Made by a program: the position numbers and the translations under genes. Positions 11,349 through 24,145 of a stretch of 64,000 bases of DNA are shown here, piece by piece. Where the stretch lies: the NCBI GenBank assembly GCA_032622095.1, contig CP136069.1, forward strand, positions 108,652,278 to 108,716,277. The letters are read 5' to 3'. The notes under the pieces were generated by a model. The model ran no database searches. It saw only the letters and a list, made by a program, of their open reading frames with translations, and had not been told where the DNA came from. This DNA is from Siphonodentalium dalli. Taxonomy: Eukaryota > Mollusca > Scaphopoda > Gadilida > Siphonodentaliidae. The first letter of the stretch is position 1. Each line of letters opens with the position of its first letter.

Positions 11349-11423
11349 TTAAAGACACGGGTTGTCGAAAATATTCATATTTGTTCCAATCACCGTAAAC
11401 AGAAAAACACTAAAACGCATACA
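11349..11423. repeat. Dispersed repeat adjoining the LINE 5' truncation point
   Basis: The segment from attaaagacacgg to aaaacgcataca is repeated with a few differences at about 14602-14687. Divergence begins immediately after acgcataca, so this segment appears unrelated to the LINE ORF that follows. Confidence 0.65.
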
Positions 11424-12531
11424 GTTTCGTTCGTCGTGTAAACAGCATGCTATCATAAATAAGTTTTATATAAATGGTGAGTCGTTAGAAGTAGTTGAAG
11501 AATATAAATACTTGGGTCTCATTTTCAGTTTTGACGGTAAAATGGAGAGAGCTTGTGAAAACTTGAGCGGGCGAGCTTCAAAGGCTATGTATTTCATGAC
11601 GAATTCATTGAATTCACAGACAGAATTGTCTCTCAGTACTAAATGTAAATTGTTTGACAAATTAATAATGCCTATTCTGTTGTATGGTTGCGAAATATGG
11701 GCTGCTGAATTGAAATTTCCGTTTGTTGATAACTACCCTCTTGAGCAGACACATTTAAAGTTCTGTAAAAATATACTACAACTCAATAGAAAAGCGTCAA
11801 ATCATGCTTCGAGGGCTGAACTAGGTCGATACCCCATAGCAGTTAATGCCATCGGGAATATGTTCAAATATCTAAATAAACTTCGTTTTGCACAACCGGG
11901 AAATATAATACATGATTCGTTCACAGAATCTCTATTATGTAATCTTCCAACGTGGGACATACATCTTGCAAAAAGAGGTATCAATATATCACAGTCTAAT
12001 AAAACGATAGGATTCACCGACAAACTTATAATTGAGAGACTAAAATCAGAACATGTAAAAAATTTCAAAAAAGATATATTCGAGGACGACAAAAAGAATG
12101 GTGCTAATAAAATACGAACATATAGAACGTTCAAAGACAAATATGAAATAGAACCATACCTCAAACACGTCCGATCACCAACGGCAAGAGAAATGTTCAC
12201 CCGACTGCGTGTTAGCAATCATATATTAGCTATAGAAAAAGGCCGACACACACAACCAAAGACGTTATTAAAAGACAGAATTTGTCTCATGTGTGATGGG
12301 AAAAAAGTTGAAACTGAAAAACATTTCATAATGGAATGCAGTGCGTACACTGACCTCAGGAAAGAATTATTTGATGTTGCTAACACTAATAACATACACT
12401 TTACAAACATGAACGATGATGATAAATTCATTTTTATAATGAAAAATGAAGACGAAGTAATTATGAATTCCGTGTGCAACATTATCCGGTTATTCTTCCA
12501 AAGGAGAACAAATATAAATATGGGGAAATGA
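11362..12531 (+). pseudogene. 5'-truncated non-LTR retrotransposon ORF2, C-terminal part
   Basis: An open frame of 389 codons represents the C-terminal end of a LINE ORF2. Near residues 40-60 it has the post-catalytic EYKYLGLIFSFDGK block and near 105 LLYGCEIWA, both typical of the region after the reverse-transcriptase active site. It ends with a zinc-binding C-x2-C-x9-H-x4-C motif (CLMC...H...C). The endonuclease and the RT catalytic motifs are missing, so it cannot act by itself. Roughly the first 20 codons (to about 11423) lie in a separate dispersed repeat also found near 14602, so the apparent ATG is probably not the element's own. The frame is otherwise uninterrupted, suggesting modest age. 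The clade is unresolved (CR1/Jockey-like group). Confidence 0.85.
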
Positions 12532-14904: not shown

Positions 14905-15992
14905 TATAGGGGAGACCGGGGCATGTTGGAACGTGGGGTATATTGAAACACCTCTCTTGTTAAAAAATAAAACAGCATCTACAATTTCCACTTATTTTGT
15001 GGAAAACACTCTTGCATATATGCACATATAACGCAAAAACATTCTGACTATTCTCGGAATGGTGTAAGAGATATGCACAAAAATATCTTTGGGGGGGGGG
15101 GGGGGGGGTATCAATTAATTTTTTCGATTTTCAGGTTTTATCATTGTTCAAGATAAAATTTCGGGACGTAAAGGTTGTAAATTATGTCAGTTGATCCAGT
15201 TTCATTTTATTTCAGTCATAAATAAAACAAAATACTGATTAATTAGTGTCTTTCCAAGATCGTGTACCATCAGACCCTTTTTCCACGTCGGGGGCATGTT
15301 GGAACATCCCATTGTGTCCCCATAGTGCGACTTACGGGAAAACCCCATAAAATTTGGCATTGAGCTAGTATAATTAACCATTATGGAACAATTCAGAAGG
15401 AATTATGGATGAATTCATCTCAGTTGCTTGCAACCATGTCCTAAATATGATTTCAATATGTTTTCGTTGATGAATAATTATTTGTGTGGCAAATGGGGAG
15501 GTTTGTATAGATAGCATGCACTAAAAACCCCTCCAAATTTTGCCCTGCTACGCCCCTCCCGTGTGTGAAACGACGTTTTCATTGGATGTGTTGCGTTTTC
15601 CAATGATGACGATTTCTCGTACATACTTTATGCCTCGGACTCAGCTATTATGTTTTATACTAGCAATTTAATATAGTTCTTGGAATATATTAGTAGTTTT
15701 ACCTTGAACTTTGCATTGATTTCATATGTGTTCCTTACATGATCAGTGTTCTGACTTACCCCAGTCGATGTTCCAATTTGCCCCTGGTTTCAAACAATTT
15801 AACCCGGGGCATGCTGGAACGAATTTATTTTTTCTATGTAAAAGCGAAATGGATCATATATAATGAAATGCCATATTTAAAGTCTTTGATATACTTTATA
15901 ATAATAGTTGAAAAAAGGAAGGGGCCCATGCTCACATTTTCCTGTATGTGTGATTGAATATAAAACGTTCCAACATGCCCCGCTCTCCCATA
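14905..15992. mobile_element. TIR element with GGGGCATGTTGGAAC termini, non-autonomous
   Basis: Left end tataggggagaccggggcat (14905) mirrors right end (ends 15992) tatgggagagcggggcat, giving TIRs of about 28 bp. The core ggggcatgttggaac also recurs internally at 15291 and, with one change, at 15806. A variant gttccaatttgcccc lies at 15770. Repeated sub-terminal motifs of this kind are often transposase-binding sites (inference). An 18-nt G run is at 15091-15108. No transposase is present, and the small ORF at 15739-15957 has no motif. Confidence 0.75.
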
Positions 15993-16396
15993 CATTTGCG
16001 ACTGCTCATGTTTTGTGTTGTATGGTACGTCGTATAATTAATGAACTCCTCTTGTAACGGACGATTCCGCCGGATATCCAGGAAATCAACGGCCACAAAC
16101 TTCGAGATTCATATCGCGAAAATATAATAAACGATAATTAAGGGTGCCCTGGACATTGGGTGATTTCTCCATGTGTCATAGGTAATAATCAATGATGGAC
16201 ACCTTTTAGACAGTCTTTTCGATGACAAATTGTCTGCATCATTCGAAATACAACTTGGACAATTATATTATAACAACACAATGCATATGCCGCAAGTATA
16301 ACAGATACCAATTCCCTTTATTCCGGCTTATCCATTTGCTATAGCTTTCTTATAGTGTACTTTTGCATCAACGTGTAGTACAAGACAAGTTTTAGA
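15990..16396. repeat. 407-bp direct repeat, upstream copy (candidate target-site duplication)
   Basis: By direct reading this copy is identical in length and sequence to 22581-22987; the flanking bases differ on both sides (c/t before, t/c after). It begins atacatttgcgactgctcat and ends caagacaagttttaga. It lies immediately upstream of the LINE body and starts within 3 bp of the right terminus of the preceding TIR element. Confidence 0.9.
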
Positions 16397-17124
16397 TGGG
16401 TGGATCACGTGACCTAACTGATAGACACACTAAATTAGTGCTCCAAATTAATGTAAAATATCTTCGAAAATGTTATTCAGCCGATAGTATGACTTCTCAT
16501 ATGGATGGTGTTTTCTATCGCGATGGTGAATCATTGGACTTTATTATGAGTTATATTCGAGATATGTGAGTTTTCGAAGCTACAAATGACTCCATTGTAT
16601 TGAATATTTGCTCCATTGTTTACGTCGCCATTTATTAGGCCAACGTATTGAACTTCGCTAATGTGCCTTCACACCGACGACCAAGATGGTTCCTATCAAT
16701 CAGATACTCCAAAGGTGTGATAAACAGTACCCAAGCCAGACTGATTAGTGTATTATGCAGCTTGGTGTTCCCAATTGAATCGGCCATCTTCAAAGTCGGC
16801 GTCGGACTCTGATCTGTTTCATGAGGAGGTGTGACAAACGTTGTACGTTACAATCCGGACATGCACCTTTTCTCTGTGTTGGCGACCAATTCTGACGTTC
16901 GTGGAAAGAGGTCCCACAATAGTTCGTTTGACTATGAACTCAGCTGATCACAGAGAACTTCGACTGTGTGACGACTGTCCGCTCAAATAGCGGTTTCGCA
17001 CCTTCGACCAATTTTGTATAAGCGACATTATAATCATACCTGGTCTTCACTAGCGGAATCAGGTCCTCCCCACCAGTGACATATCATGAACGTTCGACTT
17101 TAGTCAGACTATTTATAATAAACT
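16397..17124 (+). other. LINE 5' UTR
   Basis: A 728-bp untranslated leader starts tgggtggatcacgtgacct. It should contain the internal promoter, as is usual for LINEs, but no defined promoter element can be named from the sequence. No long ORF is present. Confidence 0.6.
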
Positions 17125-19008
17125 GTGAGAATGGACGAGTACGATATAGTTAACATCGGTGATAAAGACTACACCGTCATGTCAAACTCTAAGTCACCGC
17201 AAATGGATACACATTCAGACTATAACGGCTCAACCCAACCTCCCTCAGGCCATAAAGGTCTGCCTGAACCACACCGACGAGATCATAATATAAGTCTTCT
17301 AGACTACTTCTCGGACGCCAGCTTGCCGGACCTCAGTCTTATATTCAGCCAACCCAAAGGCAAGTTCATTGGAGGATTGCTTTTAGCTATCCCTGACGAA
17401 AATGACTTGAGAAATCTCCGAAATAAGATGTTCGCAGAAGCCCAAAGCTACAACAGTGATCTTCAACACTACAGCTTGAAAAGTCGAATCCAGCGCGACC
17501 CAGAATTGGGTGGTCTTCCCGTGAGTAGCCGCCTGGCTAAAGATATTTACAACCTTGTTCAGTTCACCAAAGGAGGTTCGTTTGATGATATCAGAGAATG
17601 TGTTTCTAAAAACAAACCGCTTCCTGCTCAACCGGATCAACGCATAAATGGGTCTCCGCCCAGCTGCCCGTGTGATTCTGTTTGCATCCAGGATAAATTA
17701 TCAGAAGTTCTTGCTGAAATCACTCTTCTCAAGGCTAACACTTCTAGTACAACTGACAGTATTCACATGGAACTTAAAGCCATATTGAACAAACAGTCCG
17801 AAATCACAGAACGCATGAACAATCTTGATAAGCGTTCAAGCGAATTAGAACTGAAATGTGTTTCAAACGCTAAGTCAATAGGTTCAGTCATGGGTACCTG
17901 TGCCGCCCTCGACCAAGCAGTGACTAGATTAAACGACGAAAAGTGTAATGGCGTGGTCAGCTTGAAAAATAGAATCAAATTTGTTGAAAATGATGTCACT
18001 GACCACTCTAAAAAGTATGAGGAACTCACAAAACAGATAGACAATCAGCAGAATGAGTTTTCAAAGACTTTCGCTAAAGCCGAAACTGTTTTCAGTAAAA
18101 TTAATGCTATGAAACAGAATATGAAGGATTCATCAAAATCATCAGAAGACATGGTAGAGAACATTGAGCGTAAATTCGGTACAATGTTTGAATTTTTCGC
18201 ACGTGATCTGACACAGAAATTTAACAATATGTGTTCTGTTGTGCAAACTCATCTTCCTCCAAACGACACACAGTCGTTTCGGCTCGATCCGCTCTCACCT
18301 GACAATCGCCTGTCTTTTGCTAGTTCATTAGACGAATCTAAGAAGTTGCCATCATCGACTCCCAGGAAATTGTCACACAGTAGACAAGCAGCAATGCAGA
18401 AACCTCCTTCTACGTCGCATAATTCACCAGAAATCGCAGTAGTTGATATTCAAACTGCTATGAATCAACGACAACCGCCAAATGACACACGAAGAAATGA
18501 AACGCCAGTCACCGAATCGAGATCTTCTGCCAATCATTCATCCGAACTACACGTTAACAGTGTATCCGTCATTTCATCTGACTCTCAAAACTCTCCACCG
18601 AGCGTTAAGCCACCCGATACACGCACAAGGCAAATGTATCACGATAACGACAACAAGACAACTGTTGCCGGCAGCAACAGTAGAGTTTATACTAACTTGG
18701 GCGAGGAATCAGTGGGATTCTCTGGTGTTCCCCGTATGGCTACAAAGCGCACTAAGAAGATATTCGTGCGCGGAATATCATTACAAACGACTAATAGTGC
18801 AATTTGGGATTATTTCGAACAGAAAGGTGTAACACCCACATTCGTGCGACTAATGTGGAGTTCCCGCAGAGGGACACAATCAGCGCGCATCCACATTAAA
18901 GAAACAGACATGGAGACAGTCTCCAGTGACACTTTCTGGCCTCCAGGAATAGACTTCAGAATGTGGACACATGAGCCACCGCAACGTTCTCAAAACAGTT
19001 ATGACTAA
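17125..19008 (+). CDS. LINE ORF1 protein (coiled coil, C-terminal RRM-like domain)
   Basis: 627 codons, ATG 17125 to TAA 19006-19008. ORF1 proteins bind the element RNA and form the ribonucleoprotein needed for retrotransposition. The N-terminal 180 residues have no motif I recognise. Residues about 190-370 are rich in heptad-like Leu/Ile/Val spacing with many Lys, Glu and Gln, consistent with a coiled coil for multimerisation. Residues about 380-540 are Ser/Pro/Asn-rich and probably disordered. Residues about 542-620 (KKIFVRGISLQTTNSAIWDYF, then FWPPGIDFRMW) resemble the RRM-like module with a terminal WP-G-I-x-x-R block found in several LINE ORF1s. No CCHC knuckle is present in ORF1. The start is the first ATG of the frame, and the frame overlaps ORF2 by 38 nt. 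Confidence 0.85.
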   Translation: MRMDEYDIVNIGDKDYTVMSNSKSPQMDTHSDYNGSTQPPSGHKGLPEPHRRDHNISLLDYFSDASLPDLSLIFSQPKGKFIGGLLLAIPDENDLRNLRNKMFAEAQSYNSDLQHYSLKSRIQRDPELGGLPVSSRLAKDIYNLVQFTKGGSFDDIRECVSKNKPLPAQPDQRINGSPPSCPCDSVCIQDKLSEVLAEITLLKANTSSTTDSIHMELKAILNKQSEITERMNNLDKRSSELELKCVSNAKSIGSVMGTCAALDQAVTRLNDEKCNGVVSLKNRIKFVENDVTDHSKKYEELTKQIDNQQNEFSKTFAKAETVFSKINAMKQNMKDSSKSSEDMVENIERKFGTMFEFFARDLTQKFNNMCSVVQTHLPPNDTQSFRLDPLSPDNRLSFASSLDESKKLPSSTPRKLSHSRQAAMQKPPSTSHNSPEIAVVDIQTAMNQRQPPNDTRRNETPVTESRSSANHSSELHVNSVSVISSDSQNSPPSVKPPDTRTRQMYHDNDNKTTVAGSNSRVYTNLGEESVGFSGVPRMATKRTKKIFVRGISLQTTNSAIWDYFEQKGVTPTFVRLMWSSRRGTQSARIHIKETDMETVSSDTFWPPGIDFRMWTHEPPQRSQNSYD

Positions 19009-22000
19009 TCATATCAATATTGCTACGTGGAATGCATCAGGAGTTAAATCTACGGTGTTATATTTGCAATTTCTAATGAAAAGTCAAATATACGATATCA
19101 TCGGAGTGTCCGAGCATTGGCTTAACACAGAGAACTTGTCTTTTATGAACTTCTTAAATGACTCATATATTGCTCTTGCAAAACCCGGAAGAACTATTAC
19201 TACAAGTTCTGGTGGTTCATTTACTCGTGATGGTATTGCTCTCCTAATCAACGTACGTATCGCAGATCAGTGTGTAGCTGTGGATACTGGAATCGATCGT
19301 TGTGTTGGCATCCAACTGAGACTCAGTCAGTCAGCTGTTATGACTATTCTTCAAGTATATCTTCCATGTACAAACCATGGCGATGATTTCTTCAAAGAAT
19401 GCGTAGAATCTGTCTTCGATCTTATAGCGCTCTTTTCTTCACACGGGCCAGTTATTACTATGGGTGACTTCAATGTACATTTATGTCGTTCATCAGAACA
19501 ACATATCCCAACAGGCCATGGCGTCAGATCAGCTTTGGTAACTTCACTTCTGCAGCGTGAAGAACTTTTCTCGGTCACGACCAAATGGTCGTGTGCCGGT
19601 CCTGCATTTACCTTTTATCCACCAGCAGCCGTGGCTTCCCCAAGCCGTATCGACCATATCGTATTCCCAATGGACCAAGAAGATCTCATATTTAACTGTG
19701 CTATTCTCAGTGACCATGAACTGAATACGTCCAACCACTTGCCTGTGACATGTTGTATTGAACTTCCATCCGACCACTTGCATGTGACACCGACTCGAAA
19801 CAAACTTTCCTTCAACTGGGACGCGATTGATATAACATCGTACCAAAATTTCCTTGACAACTATCTATCTGATGTGATTAACCGTGAAATCGTGACAACT
19901 GGTGATCTTGATACCATATGTTCCGAGATAATTGATGCATTATTATATGCATCGGTTTCCTGCACACAGACCAAATCAAGACATAAAGCCGCAAAATCAT
20001 TCTGGAACGACGAACTACGAACACTGCATCAGTTACTGAAAGAGAGACGCAGAGATTGGATTTGTGACGGCAGGCCACATGCTTGTGATGCGGTATCCCA
20101 GACTGAGTACAAACATGCCAAGCGAAAATTCCGACAAACGTTACGCTCGTGTATGCGGAAGACAGAACGTGACTCGCTTGATCAACTTGAACTTTGTGCT
20201 AGGACAAATAGTTCACAGTTTTGGCGAACTCTGAAGTCAGCAGACCAGGGATCACGCCCGAATGGTCTATGTTCGGTTATGAAGTTCGACGACATCACAC
20301 TTCGTGATCCAGTTAAAATTCTGTCAGCATGGGGATCCTACTTCAAGAACCTGTACACTCCGAATGCGCATAGTGATCCTGAATTCGACGTCGTCGTACG
20401 AACGCGCCTCGAACAGCTCCTCGACGTATCACATACAAACTATACTGACACTATATTCTGTGAACGGATAACTATCCCAGAACTCAACTTAGTTTTAAAG
20501 AACCTTAAACGCCATAAATCAAGCGGAATAGATAATGTGGTGAATGAGCATATTATTAATGGGAGCGAACGTCTTAAAGCGGCTCTTTGTCATCTCTACA
20601 ACGGCATGATTGACTTGGAGTGGATACCTCCTTGCTTAAAAACTGGTATCATCGTACCCCTCTACAAGGGATCTCCAAAACCACACGCCATTCCTGACAG
20701 CTATCGAGCTATCACTCTGCTTCCAGTTATGTACAAAGTATTCGAAGGCATCCTGCTTAACAGGTTCCTCACGGACGGTCACTTTCCAAATTTCCCTAAT
20801 AAATTACAACATGGTTTTCAAAAAGGTGTGAACTGCCTCATGACTTCATTCGTTCTCCAAGAGTCTATCTCGTATCTCCATGACCTTGATGCCCGAGCAT
20901 ATGTGTGCTTCTTGGATTCGCAGAAGGCCTTTGATCGTGTATGGCACGAGGGCCTTCTGATAAAACTTCATGACATGGGTTTCAATGGAAAAATTCTGCG
21001 ACTTGTGACAAATATGCACCAATATTGTAAAAGCCATGTGCTATATAACGGATCTCTTTCTGAACCATTCGACGTTCTACAAGGAACAAGACAAGGGGCA
21101 GTGACTTCTCCCTTTTTTTATCTTGTGTATATAAATGATTTGCTGGAAACTTTGACCAAATCCAGAAATGGCCTACACATCTCTGAAATTCCGTGTACTT
21201 CGCCGTCTGCGGCCGACGATATTGCTCTGATATCACTCACGAAATCGGGTCTTGATAGCCTCATCGACATCTGTTACAGATACAGTCGACAGTGGAGATT
21301 TAATTTCTCAACGACGAAAAGCACAATTGTTGTATTTAACGAGACAAAACGTCAAGATAAACTCAACGATAGACAATGGTTTCTTGGTGATCAACCGCTT
21401 CCAGAATCCAACAACTGTGTTCATCTTGGAATCAAACAGTGCAAATTTCAAGCTGATACAACACGGAGCTCAATTCTTTCGGAAAAGTTACGAAAATCGT
21501 ACTTTAGTATCGCTGGAAGAGGTTTGCTCAAATCGTGCACACCACTGACAATGGCAAATCTGTTAGGATCAATCGTGCTGCCAAAAGCTCTATATGGTTG
21601 TCAGTTGCTGAATATCACAAACAACACTGTCATGTATTCAATGGAAAAGGCATACCGTTTATGTGTCAAACACATCCAAACGCTCCCGACTCGGACCCCG
21701 ACTAACGTTGCGATGAGTCTCCTTGGGTTAATACCGCTTGAGACGGAGATACACATCAACAAACTAAATTTTCTCTCCGAACTGATCCATCTGCCTCAAG
21801 GACACCAGGTACCTCTTACGATCTTTCTCCAGAAATTTTTCCAGCTCACCCTTTTCGCTCGTCAAACAACTGGATTCGTCCCGGATATCATTGAAATATT
21901 AAATCTCTATGACCTGTATCATGTCCTAACAACATACGTGAAAACTGGAATATTCCCAACGAAATCTTCTTGGAAAAATCTTGTGCAGACAGCAGTCAGA

Positions 22001-22483
22001 CAGAACTATCATCGAGAATGGTGCCGATCTGTGTCCGTCGATAGAAACCTCGATGTGTTTAAAATTGTGCACGGAGACCCAGCATCATGTTGGAACATTT
22101 GGAGAATCCTGCGAGATTACCCACGATATAATAAACAACTGCGAAATCTTGCCTTATTGCTAAACAAGACAACATACAGTAACAATTTGACATGTTGTGC
22201 ATGTATAAATACATATAACTGTGAGTTAATACACGCAATCCGCCACTGTAATTCACCCTGTTCTGTCGTCCTGAGGAACGACTATCTGGATTGCATAACT
22301 GACCAATACGGCGTTGCCGCCTTTTTGTATATAGACTCGTTAAGCGATATAGAACTTTGTGCATTTCTACTCGGCACCGACGTCATGCAGTACCCGGTGG
22401 AAATAGAACAACACATGGACAAAATAATTATCGACACTGCTACATTTCTGTTCATCTTGTGCCAAGTGATTCGAGGACAATAA
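18971..22483 (+). CDS. LINE ORF2 polyprotein (AP endonuclease, reverse transcriptase, CCHC)
   Basis: 1170 codons. It nicks target DNA and reverse-transcribes the element RNA from the nick (target-primed reverse transcription). Residues about 13-262 form the endonuclease: INIATWN at 15-21, GVSEHWL near 45, MGDFN at 164-168, RIDHIVF, then TSNHLPV at 253-259. The reverse transcriptase spans about 510-800, with IIVPLYKGSP, motif A FLDSQKAFD (D649), motif B QGTRQGA and motif C AADD (D749, D750). The C-terminus carries C1075-x2-C1078-x9-H1088-x4-C1093. The first ATG at 18971 overlaps ORF1. A second in-frame ATG at 19001 lies in ATGACTAA, where the TAA is the ORF1 stop, so termination-reinitiation is plausible. 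The last endonuclease motif reads SNH rather than the usual SDH. Confidence 0.92.
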   Translation: MSHRNVLKTVMTNHINIATWNASGVKSTVLYLQFLMKSQIYDIIGVSEHWLNTENLSFMNFLNDSYIALAKPGRTITTSSGGSFTRDGIALLINVRIADQCVAVDTGIDRCVGIQLRLSQSAVMTILQVYLPCTNHGDDFFKECVESVFDLIALFSSHGPVITMGDFNVHLCRSSEQHIPTGHGVRSALVTSLLQREELFSVTTKWSCAGPAFTFYPPAAVASPSRIDHIVFPMDQEDLIFNCAILSDHELNTSNHLPVTCCIELPSDHLHVTPTRNKLSFNWDAIDITSYQNFLDNYLSDVINREIVTTGDLDTICSEIIDALLYASVSCTQTKSRHKAAKSFWNDELRTLHQLLKERRRDWICDGRPHACDAVSQTEYKHAKRKFRQTLRSCMRKTERDSLDQLELCARTNSSQFWRTLKSADQGSRPNGLCSVMKFDDITLRDPVKILSAWGSYFKNLYTPNAHSDPEFDVVVRTRLEQLLDVSHTNYTDTIFCERITIPELNLVLKNLKRHKSSGIDNVVNEHIINGSERLKAALCHLYNGMIDLEWIPPCLKTGIIVPLYKGSPKPHAIPDSYRAITLLPVMYKVFEGILLNRFLTDGHFPNFPNKLQHGFQKGVNCLMTSFVLQESISYLHDLDARAYVCFLDSQKAFDRVWHEGLLIKLHDMGFNGKILRLVTNMHQYCKSHVLYNGSLSEPFDVLQGTRQGAVTSPFFYLVYINDLLETLTKSRNGLHISEIPCTSPSAADDIALISLTKSGLDSLIDICYRYSRQWRFNFSTTKSTIVVFNETKRQDKLNDRQWFLGDQPLPESNNCVHLGIKQCKFQADTTRSSILSEKLRKSYFSIAGRGLLKSCTPLTMANLLGSIVLPKALYGCQLLNITNNTVMYSMEKAYRLCVKHIQTLPTRTPTNVAMSLLGLIPLETEIHINKLNFLSELIHLPQGHQVPLTIFLQKFFQLTLFARQTTGFVPDIIEILNLYDLYHVLTTYVKTGIFPTKSSWKNLVQTAVRQNYHREWCRSVSVDRNLDVFKIVHGDPASCWNIWRILRDYPRYNKQLRNLALLLNKTTYSNNLTCCACINTYNCELIHAIRHCNSPCSVVLRNDYLDCITDQYGVAAFLYIDSLSDIELCAFLLGTDVMQYPVEIEQHMDKIIIDTATFLFILCQVIRGQ

Positions 22484-22580
22484 TCACATTATCAACCCAC
22501 GACTTTGTATATTGTTGTTATATTTACATGAACTATACATATTCTTCTCCAAACTGGAGGTCCACAATAAATATATATAT
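22484..22580 (+). other. LINE 3' UTR, AATAAA and TA-repeat tail
   Basis: The short 3' UTR has AATAAA at 22567-22572, running directly into a TATATATATA tail that joins the downstream 407-bp repeat. The tail location supports this point, not the end of the repeat, as the true 3' end of the element. Confidence 0.75.
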
Positions 22581-22987
22581 ATACATTTGCGACTGCTCAT
22601 GTTTTGTGTTGTATGGTACGTCGTATAATTAATGAACTCCTCTTGTAACGGACGATTCCGCCGGATATCCAGGAAATCAACGGCCACAAACTTCGAGATT
22701 CATATCGCGAAAATATAATAAACGATAATTAAGGGTGCCCTGGACATTGGGTGATTTCTCCATGTGTCATAGGTAATAATCAATGATGGACACCTTTTAG
22801 ACAGTCTTTTCGATGACAAATTGTCTGCATCATTCGAAATACAACTTGGACAATTATATTATAACAACACAATGCATATGCCGCAAGTATAACAGATACC
22901 AATTCCCTTTATTCCGGCTTATCCATTTGCTATAGCTTTCTTATAGTGTACTTTTGCATCAACGTGTAGTACAAGACAAGTTTTAGA
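22581..22987. repeat. 407-bp direct repeat, downstream copy
   Basis: Same length and sequence as 15990-16396 on line-by-line comparison. It follows the LINE (TA)n tail, and non-repeated sequence resumes at caacgaataagaa. It is interpreted as the second half of an unusually long target-site duplication. Confidence 0.9.
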
Positions 22988-23435
22988 CAACGAATAAGAA
23001 TTATGATCAGCAAATGGGCCATTCTCCGGAAAAGTGCGAAACAGGACCGGCCTACCATACTCGTCCAAAACAAACTCTTACAGATCACGCTAAATTTAAT
23101 TTCCCCATAAATTAGAAGTGTATCAAAATCTAAGAAAGCATCCTCTATGGCGGCCACCATTTTATGAATTAGTAAACGGACATACGAACAATTCAATAAG
23201 AGTCCCCAGTATAGTATATTGTATTGTTTTGTAATGACTATATAGAAGAACATTTCCGATCAGACAGGAGTTTCACCATTCAGAAATCTTATCAATTGGT
23301 GCCATAATAGATGATGACTTAAGTGTCAGATGCATGTTTTGCCTAAATTTCCTGGTATATGTCTAAATGTATTTGCTAAAAATCTGTCAGGAATTTCTTT
23401 CGGAAATTTGGTATAAGCGATTATTGTGACACAAT

Positions 23436-24145
23436 GGCTGCGGACACACGTATCACAGTAGCGATGGCATAGTAGGTGTGACAATTTATTATGGTGGAGT
23501 TTGGTGACAATTGGTCGTCACAATTAATATGCCATATAGCTGGCCATGTCGCCCGCTGCATATTCGCACAATGAGTCTTCCAAAGTTCGTTATGATCAGC
23601 CTTTTTCTTGTTTTGGTCCTTGTATATATTGTTCGCTTTGTTTATTCCAGATACTTTCTCTCAGCTACATTTCTCCCAACAATTCCGACACAGCTTCATC
23701 GGCCCACATGATAATGTTAGCGGAATTATGCGTAGAACTAAACGTCGCAAAATTAAAAATGCAATTGGGGAACTGTCTTAATACGCATGAAATTAATATA
23801 AGTAGATAAACATGCAGTGAGATCATGTCAATAAAATACTACGTGCATGATATGTAAGTGAATGAGGGATTGCCATGGTCAAACACAATTCTGGACGATC
23901 GATCGTGCAATTATATTATATCGTAGATAATACAATGTAGCAAAACGTAATGAGTAGAGATCAACCTTGGTGAAACGCAATGGGTTAATTGGTCGAGTCG
24001 ACTCATTGTGCGGAAACTCAGCGGGCAACACGGCGAGCTATAATATGGCACATAATTATGACGATCAATTGTCACCAAACTCCACCATAATAAATTGTCA
24101 CACCTACTATATGGCATCGCTACTGTAATACGGGTGTCCGCAGCC
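23436..24145. mobile_element. TIR element with long (about 145 bp) inverted arms
   Basis: The left arm starts ggctgcggacacacgtatca and runs to about 23577. The right arm starts near 24000 (gactcattgtgcgg) and ends ccgcagcc at 24145. The arms share aggtgtgacaatttattatg and gtggagtttggtgacaattg in mirrored order. AAT flanks both ends and could be the target duplication. The interior includes a 66-codon frame with a hydrophobic segment (see findings). Confidence 0.82.

Follow-up and report, generated by a model that had tools for sequence, protein, structure and literature searches.

A 407-bp target-site duplication and frequent long duplications in a family of long interspersed nuclear elements of the scaphopod Siphonodentalium dalli

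Background

When a long interspersed nuclear element (LINE) inserts, the outcome is reported to depend on where the second strand is broken with respect to the first nick: a duplication (break downstream), a blunt joining or a truncation of the target (break upstream) (PMC2666801, PMC2881922). How LINEs position this break is a recognised open question (PMC2881922). With nucleotide excision repair (NER) intact, L1 is reported to create target-site duplications (TSDs) with a median of 14 bp. In NER-deficient human cells its TSDs range from a few bp to kilobases with a median of 1,495 bp, and a remote second nick has been proposed (PMC5223499). The account of the zebrafish element ZfL2-2 in chicken DT40 cells also lets the place of the second break set duplication or truncation. 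Of 25 events in wild-type cells, 24 had alterations no larger than 20 bp and one had a 1,228-bp TSD, and truncations of 343 to 50,187 bp are given for Ku70-/- cells (PMC2666801). For L1, mention is made of TSDs that reach several hundred nucleotides, and the TSDs of the RTE element SR3 measure 10 to 12 bp (PMC1291365). Here we describe a LINE of the scaphopod mollusc Siphonodentalium dalli that lies between two identical direct repeats of 407 bp, in a stretch of 64,000 nucleotides (the window; assembly GCA_032622095.1, contig CP136069.1, positions 108,652,278 to 108,716,277, forward strand).

We consider it probable that the 407 bp are a TSD created when a LINE of the apurinic/apyrimidinic endonuclease (APE) type entered a dispersed host repeat by target-primed reverse transcription, that the second-strand break is often remote in this family, and that this looseness belongs to the element sooner than to the host.

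Results

The 407 bp are duplicated host DNA

The two 407-bp copies directly border the LINE, have no mismatch, as a preliminary description of the window had claimed, and their identity extends 0 bp beyond either side (Table 1). The 407 bp were searched against the species' own assembly (2.2 Gb, 9 contigs) and the best 40 of 89 candidates were scored. Besides the two window copies, at least 12 full-length matches at 98-100% were found among these 40. Fifteen copies, L001 to L015, were examined with 1 kb on either side. In L001-L012 the 407 bp continue without interruption into the window's left flank on one side and its right flank on the other, and no LINE is present. The left-flank query (990 bp) is whole in nine of these 12, is matched over 870 bp in L012 and 555 bp in L004 and L006, and reaches the junction in all. 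L013 and L014 are 92% copies and likewise LINE-free; in L015 only bases 1-252 of the 407 bp are matched and the right flank is lacking. No LINE sequence was matched in any of the 15 loci within 1 kb of the 407 bp. An association of the 407 bp with other copies of the same LINE, named in advance as the finding that would speak against a TSD, was thus not seen.

Because the flanks and the 407 bp are unbroken and LINE-free in 12 paralogs, these are paralogous empty sites and the repeat is a 407-bp TSD. The target held one 407-bp copy, and the LINE insertion doubled it. The empty-site junctions are CTCTCCC/ATACATTT and TTTTAGA/CAACGAATAAG (the slash marks the junction). The insertion-free arrangement foreseen in the preliminary description (ctctccc, one 407-bp copy, caacgaataag) is therefore present in 12 paralogs of this host repeat, and its placing of the repeat outside the element is borne out. 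Tandem 407-bp copies that predate the insertion were rejected for the window locus, as the paralogs hold a single copy.

Table 1. Features of the window locus (positions in the window) and the long duplications found in the LINE family
Feature	Positions	Strand	Remarks
Left flank as tested, dispersed host repeat around LINE	15000..15989		98.6-99.8% in L001-L012
407-bp TSD, upstream copy (host DNA)	15990..16396	+	identical to 22581-22987; continuous with left flank in 12 LINE-free paralogs
Nine extra bases, 5' junction	16397..16405	+	both other full-length copies begin at 16406
Full-length two-ORF APE-type LINE with (TA)n tail	16406..22580	+	6,175 bp
LINE ORF1	17131..19008	+	ATG at 17131, stop at 19008
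LINE ORF2, 1170 aa	18971..22483	+	APE-like endonuclease and reverse transcriptase
AATAAA signal and (TA)n tail, LINE 3' end	22566..22580	+	AATAAA at 22566-22571, then (TA)n to 22580
407-bp TSD, downstream copy (host DNA)	22581..22987	+	continuous with right flank in 12 LINE-free paralogs
Right flank as tested, same host repeat continuing	22988..24000		~1 kb at 98.3-99.8% in L001-L012
Event: window			duplication 407 bp
Event: C7_111.4			duplication ~840 bp
Event: C8_111.7			duplication ~2,751 bp; first ~34-bp unit expanded by ~750 bp in downstream copy
Event: C8_58			duplication 222 bp
Event: C7_40			duplication 571 bp
Event: C8_131			duplication ~757 bp
Event: C9_103			duplication 1,137 bp
Event: C6_24			duplication 224 bp
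Event: C2 pair			duplication 154 bp
Event: C6_149			duplication ~745 bp
Event: C7_112			duplication 281 bp
Event: C4_93			duplication 56 bp

Long duplications recur across the LINE family

The LINE 3' end has at least 35 matches at 95% identity or more among the best 40 of 162 candidates. Of these, 33 with both flanks (the window copy and 32 others) were analysed; C6:149035947, whose range and identity equal those of C6_149, and C8:66869777 were left out. Two copies on C2 have the same truncation point, flanks and duplication, so the 33 copies represent 32 independent events. Direct repeats of 56 to ~2,750 bp (median 489) abut both LINE ends in 12 of the 32 events. A repeat was counted as abutting when it touches the 3' tail and reaches the 5' end within 10 bp. 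The long repeats begin at the 3' tail and stop at, or no more than 10 bp from, the 5' end, which is often truncated, and they consist of different local sequence of different length in each event. The automatic criterion detected 11 of the 12 long duplications, and C8_111.7 was identified by inspection. When each downstream flank was compared with the upstream flanks of the other copies, none of 1,056 mismatched pairs gave an abutting repeat, except for the C2 copies against each other (both ways). This control and the 12 empty sites exclude a chance origin of the repeats. Insert length and duplication length were not clearly correlated (Spearman 0.50, p = 0.10, n = 12).

The divergence between the two copies of a duplication was compared with the identity of the LINE to the window LINE. 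The window copies have 0 differences in 407 bases. In other events with a LINE 99-100% like that of the window, the copies differ by 0-0.7% (substitutions), and in events with a LINE at 95-98% they differ by ~1-3.6%, the highest value being 2 of 56 bases.

Four copies of an older sister subfamily were also compared. C8_93 carries, near both junctions, a repeat that is interrupted (163 bp downstream, ~226 bp upstream), and the other three have no repeat within 1.2 kb.

Events without a long duplication

In C5_27.9 the TSD is 11 bp. In C3_133 unrelated filler of 1,009 bp (L043 101-1109), perhaps a co-inserted or chimeric piece, lies between a 137-bp repeat and the LINE 5' end. Several candidate repeats were rejected. 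That of C1_151 matches at 87% from base 1 of the downstream flank and lies far upstream, out of line with other matches. Those of C8_39.4 and C3_42 are present in both flanks and do not begin at the 3' junction. Among the best 40 matches no near-identical second copy was found of the downstream flank of C9_156, or of the first 44 bp of the downstream flank of C3_176.

The flank of C7_202 is part of a repeat that has numerous near-identical copies. Upstream of the insertion point, two of these copies have 496-497 more bases in common, and this sequence was not found upstream of the LINE. The comparison points to a probable target deletion of ~0.5 kb or more; a repeat copy already broken at the insertion point is a possible alternative. 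A probable deletion at C7_202 fits second breaks on either side of the first nick.

The C1_151 copy (C1:151053420-151061254, minus strand) is also unusual within the element. The first 595 bp of the LINE are found in three copies with a spacing of exactly 3,620 bp, and its 5' part thus looks tandemly repeated.

The LINE itself is ordinary

Reverse transcriptase (RT) and an APE-like endonuclease lie within one open reading frame (ORF), as in APE-type retrotransposons that lack long terminal repeats (LTRs). In a Pfam scan ORF2 matches PF00078 (RT; E 7.6e-24) and PF03372 (APE-like endonuclease; E 4.6e-07). Its best matches in PDB are L1 ORF2p chains, and R2 proteins are among its PDB relatives; all of these matches are distant. 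ORF1 overlaps ORF2 and has no Pfam match above the cut-off, with weak coiled-coil-like matches only. With E values of up to 1 allowed, neither ORF matches a Pfam integrase, protease or gag domain. The Pfam scan of the ORFs found no GIY-YIG endonuclease, the hallmark of Penelope-like elements, and found the APE-like endonuclease instead. The LINE copies have a constant 3' end and varied 5' start points (5' truncation). Terminal repeats common to the copies, which would characterise an LTR retrotransposon, are absent, and each LINE copy has its own repeat. The short TSD of a few to some tens of bp, a trait that is typical of LINEs and not strictly defining, is not the rule in this family: 12 of the 32 events have 56 bp to ~2.75 kb, one has 11 bp, and in 18 none was found.

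The element was first described as a two-ORF LINE of 6184 bp between the repeats. The two ORFs stand and the length does not: since both other full-length copies start at 16406, the element proper is 6,175 bp long and the nine preceding bases are extra. The 3' end was correctly placed at the AATAAA signal and the (TA)n tail.

Elsewhere in the window a 389-aa open frame (11362-12531, plus strand) resembles by eye the C-terminal part of ORF2 of another LINE; no Pfam family matches it with an E value of 0.1 or less. The host repeat contains a 58-nt inverted repeat (23469-23526 and 24053-24110, 97% complementary, 526 nt apart), and this region may be a small inverted-repeat element. The adjoining positions 23436-23471 recur, reverse-complemented, at the 3' junction of LINE copy C9_28.

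Two control LINE families

Two other families, K1 and K2, were picked from an RT search of the assembly (best 150 of 38,730 candidates). Both have an APE-like endonuclease and RT, with (CCAAT)n tails in K1 and (ATCCT)n tails in K2. Over part of ORF2 their protein identity is 50% to each other and 24-27% to the window LINE. Both look CR1/L2-like. Fourteen K1 copies were taken; the K1 copies L080, C8_167, C3_124 and C7_40 were excluded as their 5' ends lie beyond the DNA examined, and so were the K2 copies L082 and L083. The controls are the 11 copies with both ends, ten of K1 and one of K2.

Ten of these are clear. None has a repeat at both ends, either long or of at least 7 bp, within 0.5-1.9 kb upstream and 1.0-1.5 kb downstream. 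The eleventh, K1_C4_145, is ambiguous and was not counted: it has an apparent 872-bp repeat in an array of ~886-bp units, which a ~12-bp deletion explains equally well. Other candidates were rejected. The 87% repeat of K1_C4_53 runs from the 3' junction, ends 42 bp short of the 5' junction and lies amid ~170-bp local units, and the weak repeats (70-88%) of K1_C2_7 and K1_C6_167 do not reach both junctions. In K1_C6_76 the flanks meet with a one-base overlap when compared with the LINE-free paralog L119, and by this comparison the insertion is blunt. Young (CCAAT)n-tailed K1 copies (L081, L103-L116 and others) are thus without a TSD of 7 bp or more.

Discussion

A proposed loose placement of the second-strand break

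The long duplications suggest that the last cut of the insertion is loosely placed in this LINE family. At the window locus the simplest mechanism would be a pair of nicks hundreds of bases apart. The first steps would follow the usual course of target-primed reverse transcription, with a nick of the bottom strand by the LINE endonuclease and priming near the (TA)n tail. The second break, in the opposite strand, would not be confined to a distance of a few bases and would often lie hundreds to thousands of bases away. If it lay downstream, fill-in would produce a long TSD; if it lay upstream, the target would suffer a deletion; and if it lay close by, the TSD would be short or absent. ORF2 would neither make nor place the second cut, leaving host nicks, gaps or forks to supply it. 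We put forward only tentatively that ORF2 makes the first nick alone and that the far end of the complementary DNA (cDNA) is joined to some unrelated break, fork or chromatid of the host at a distance of up to kilobases.

Several observations weigh against this interpretation. Different long repeats had been expected at other copies of the LINE; they were found at 11 further independent events (56 to ~2,750 bp), and 18 of the 32 events have no duplication within the upstream flanks tested (1.5-6.1 kb in all; 5.5-6.1 kb for 12 and 1.5-3.4 kb for six). Empty sites are verified for one event only, the window locus. We infer the two remote nicks. The contrast in long TSDs with the control families (12/32 against 0/10) is weak, with a two-sided p of 0.04; p is 0.08 when it is limited to repeats of up to 1 kb (10/32 against 0/10) and 0.13 when the ambiguous control is counted (12/32 against 1/11). 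Finally, the duplication copies of C8_111.7 differ by 2.5% in substitutions, spread across most tenths of the repeat, with a LINE ~100% like that of the window. This divergence may stem from later recombination with another haplotype, or from two haplotypes joined during insertion.

That the element is responsible, and not a host-wide repair defect, is the weakest step of the explanation. Since K1 and K2 do not clearly show long TSDs, the looseness is assigned to the element over the host, and this remains the more probable choice. The difference between the families is suggestive only, as it is confounded with clade. If the species handled LINE intermediates poorly, for example through weak NER, the second nick would be remote for any LINE. 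The range and median of the TSDs do resemble those reported for L1 in NER-deficient cells (PMC5223499), none of the clear controls has a TSD of at least 7 bp, canonical TSDs being scarce generally in this genome, and the control flanks, mostly ~1 kb, are too short to reveal kilobase TSDs. However, none of the ten clear K1 and K2 copies has a clear long repeat, K1_C6_76 is blunt by its paralog, and the assembly contains one XPA_C domain, the sole NER gene looked for. We regard a host-wide effect as unlikely.

Capture coupled to replication or recombination is also improbable. The far end of the cDNA would join a fork, gap, sister chromatid or homologue elsewhere, and the duplication would be the offset between two molecules. 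This would accommodate the kilobase sizes, the occurrence of duplications in 12 events alongside a probable deletion in one, and the diverged copies of C8_111.7 around a nearly unchanged LINE. Yet 10 of the 11 other duplications have diverged in keeping with the age of the LINE or offer too few sites to tell, and a simple remote nick accounts for the remainder in fewer steps.

False duplication at the LINE junctions during assembly is very improbable: the repeats stop at the junctions in 12 events, 9 of the 12 have substitutions or indels between the copies, in every copy examined, and the control families are without a clear effect. The likelihood that the 407 bp belong to the element, whether as a truncated tandem copy of it or in the manner of an LTR, is negligible, since despite an outward structure that resembles an LTR element the longer host repeat contains the 407 bp without a LINE at 12 sites, which rules it out, other LINE copies bear other repeats, and the ORFs match APE and RT families only.

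Comparison with known systems

The family would generate duplications of nearby host DNA, and its long direct repeats would offer a route for LINE loss by recombination. If ORF2 made the first nick only, kilobase-scale local duplications (and deletions) would be routine, and insertions would acquire LTR-like ends made of host DNA. A family with TSDs of 11 bp to ~2.75 kb beside two LINE families in the genome that do not clearly share this behaviour allows a direct comparison of the enzymes. K1 and K2 are like the window LINE in APE-type endonuclease, RT, 5' truncation, young copies and host, and differ from it in their pentanucleotide tails and in the lack of a clear long TSD in 10 copies.

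No natural LINE family with frequent long TSDs was found described in the literature searched, which covers few subscription journals. The nearest natural precedents are the rotifer R9 element and Rte-1 of C. elegans. R9 is, by the title of its report, a LINE with an exceptionally long TSD and specific to rDNA; it reportedly has a fixed site and a TSD of ~126 bp. Rte-1 is said, in a single report, to be flanked by a ~200-bp direct repeat. The range of TSDs described for L1 in NER-deficient cells is similar to that found here, but the L1 case concerns an engineered element in cultured, repair-deficient cells and the present one a natural genomic family. In the account of ZfL2-2 the long TSD is rare in wild-type cells, whereas long TSDs are frequent in the present family. 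For L1 and ZfL2-2, long TSDs are known as rare events or as results of defective repair, and what is new here is a natural family that makes them often.

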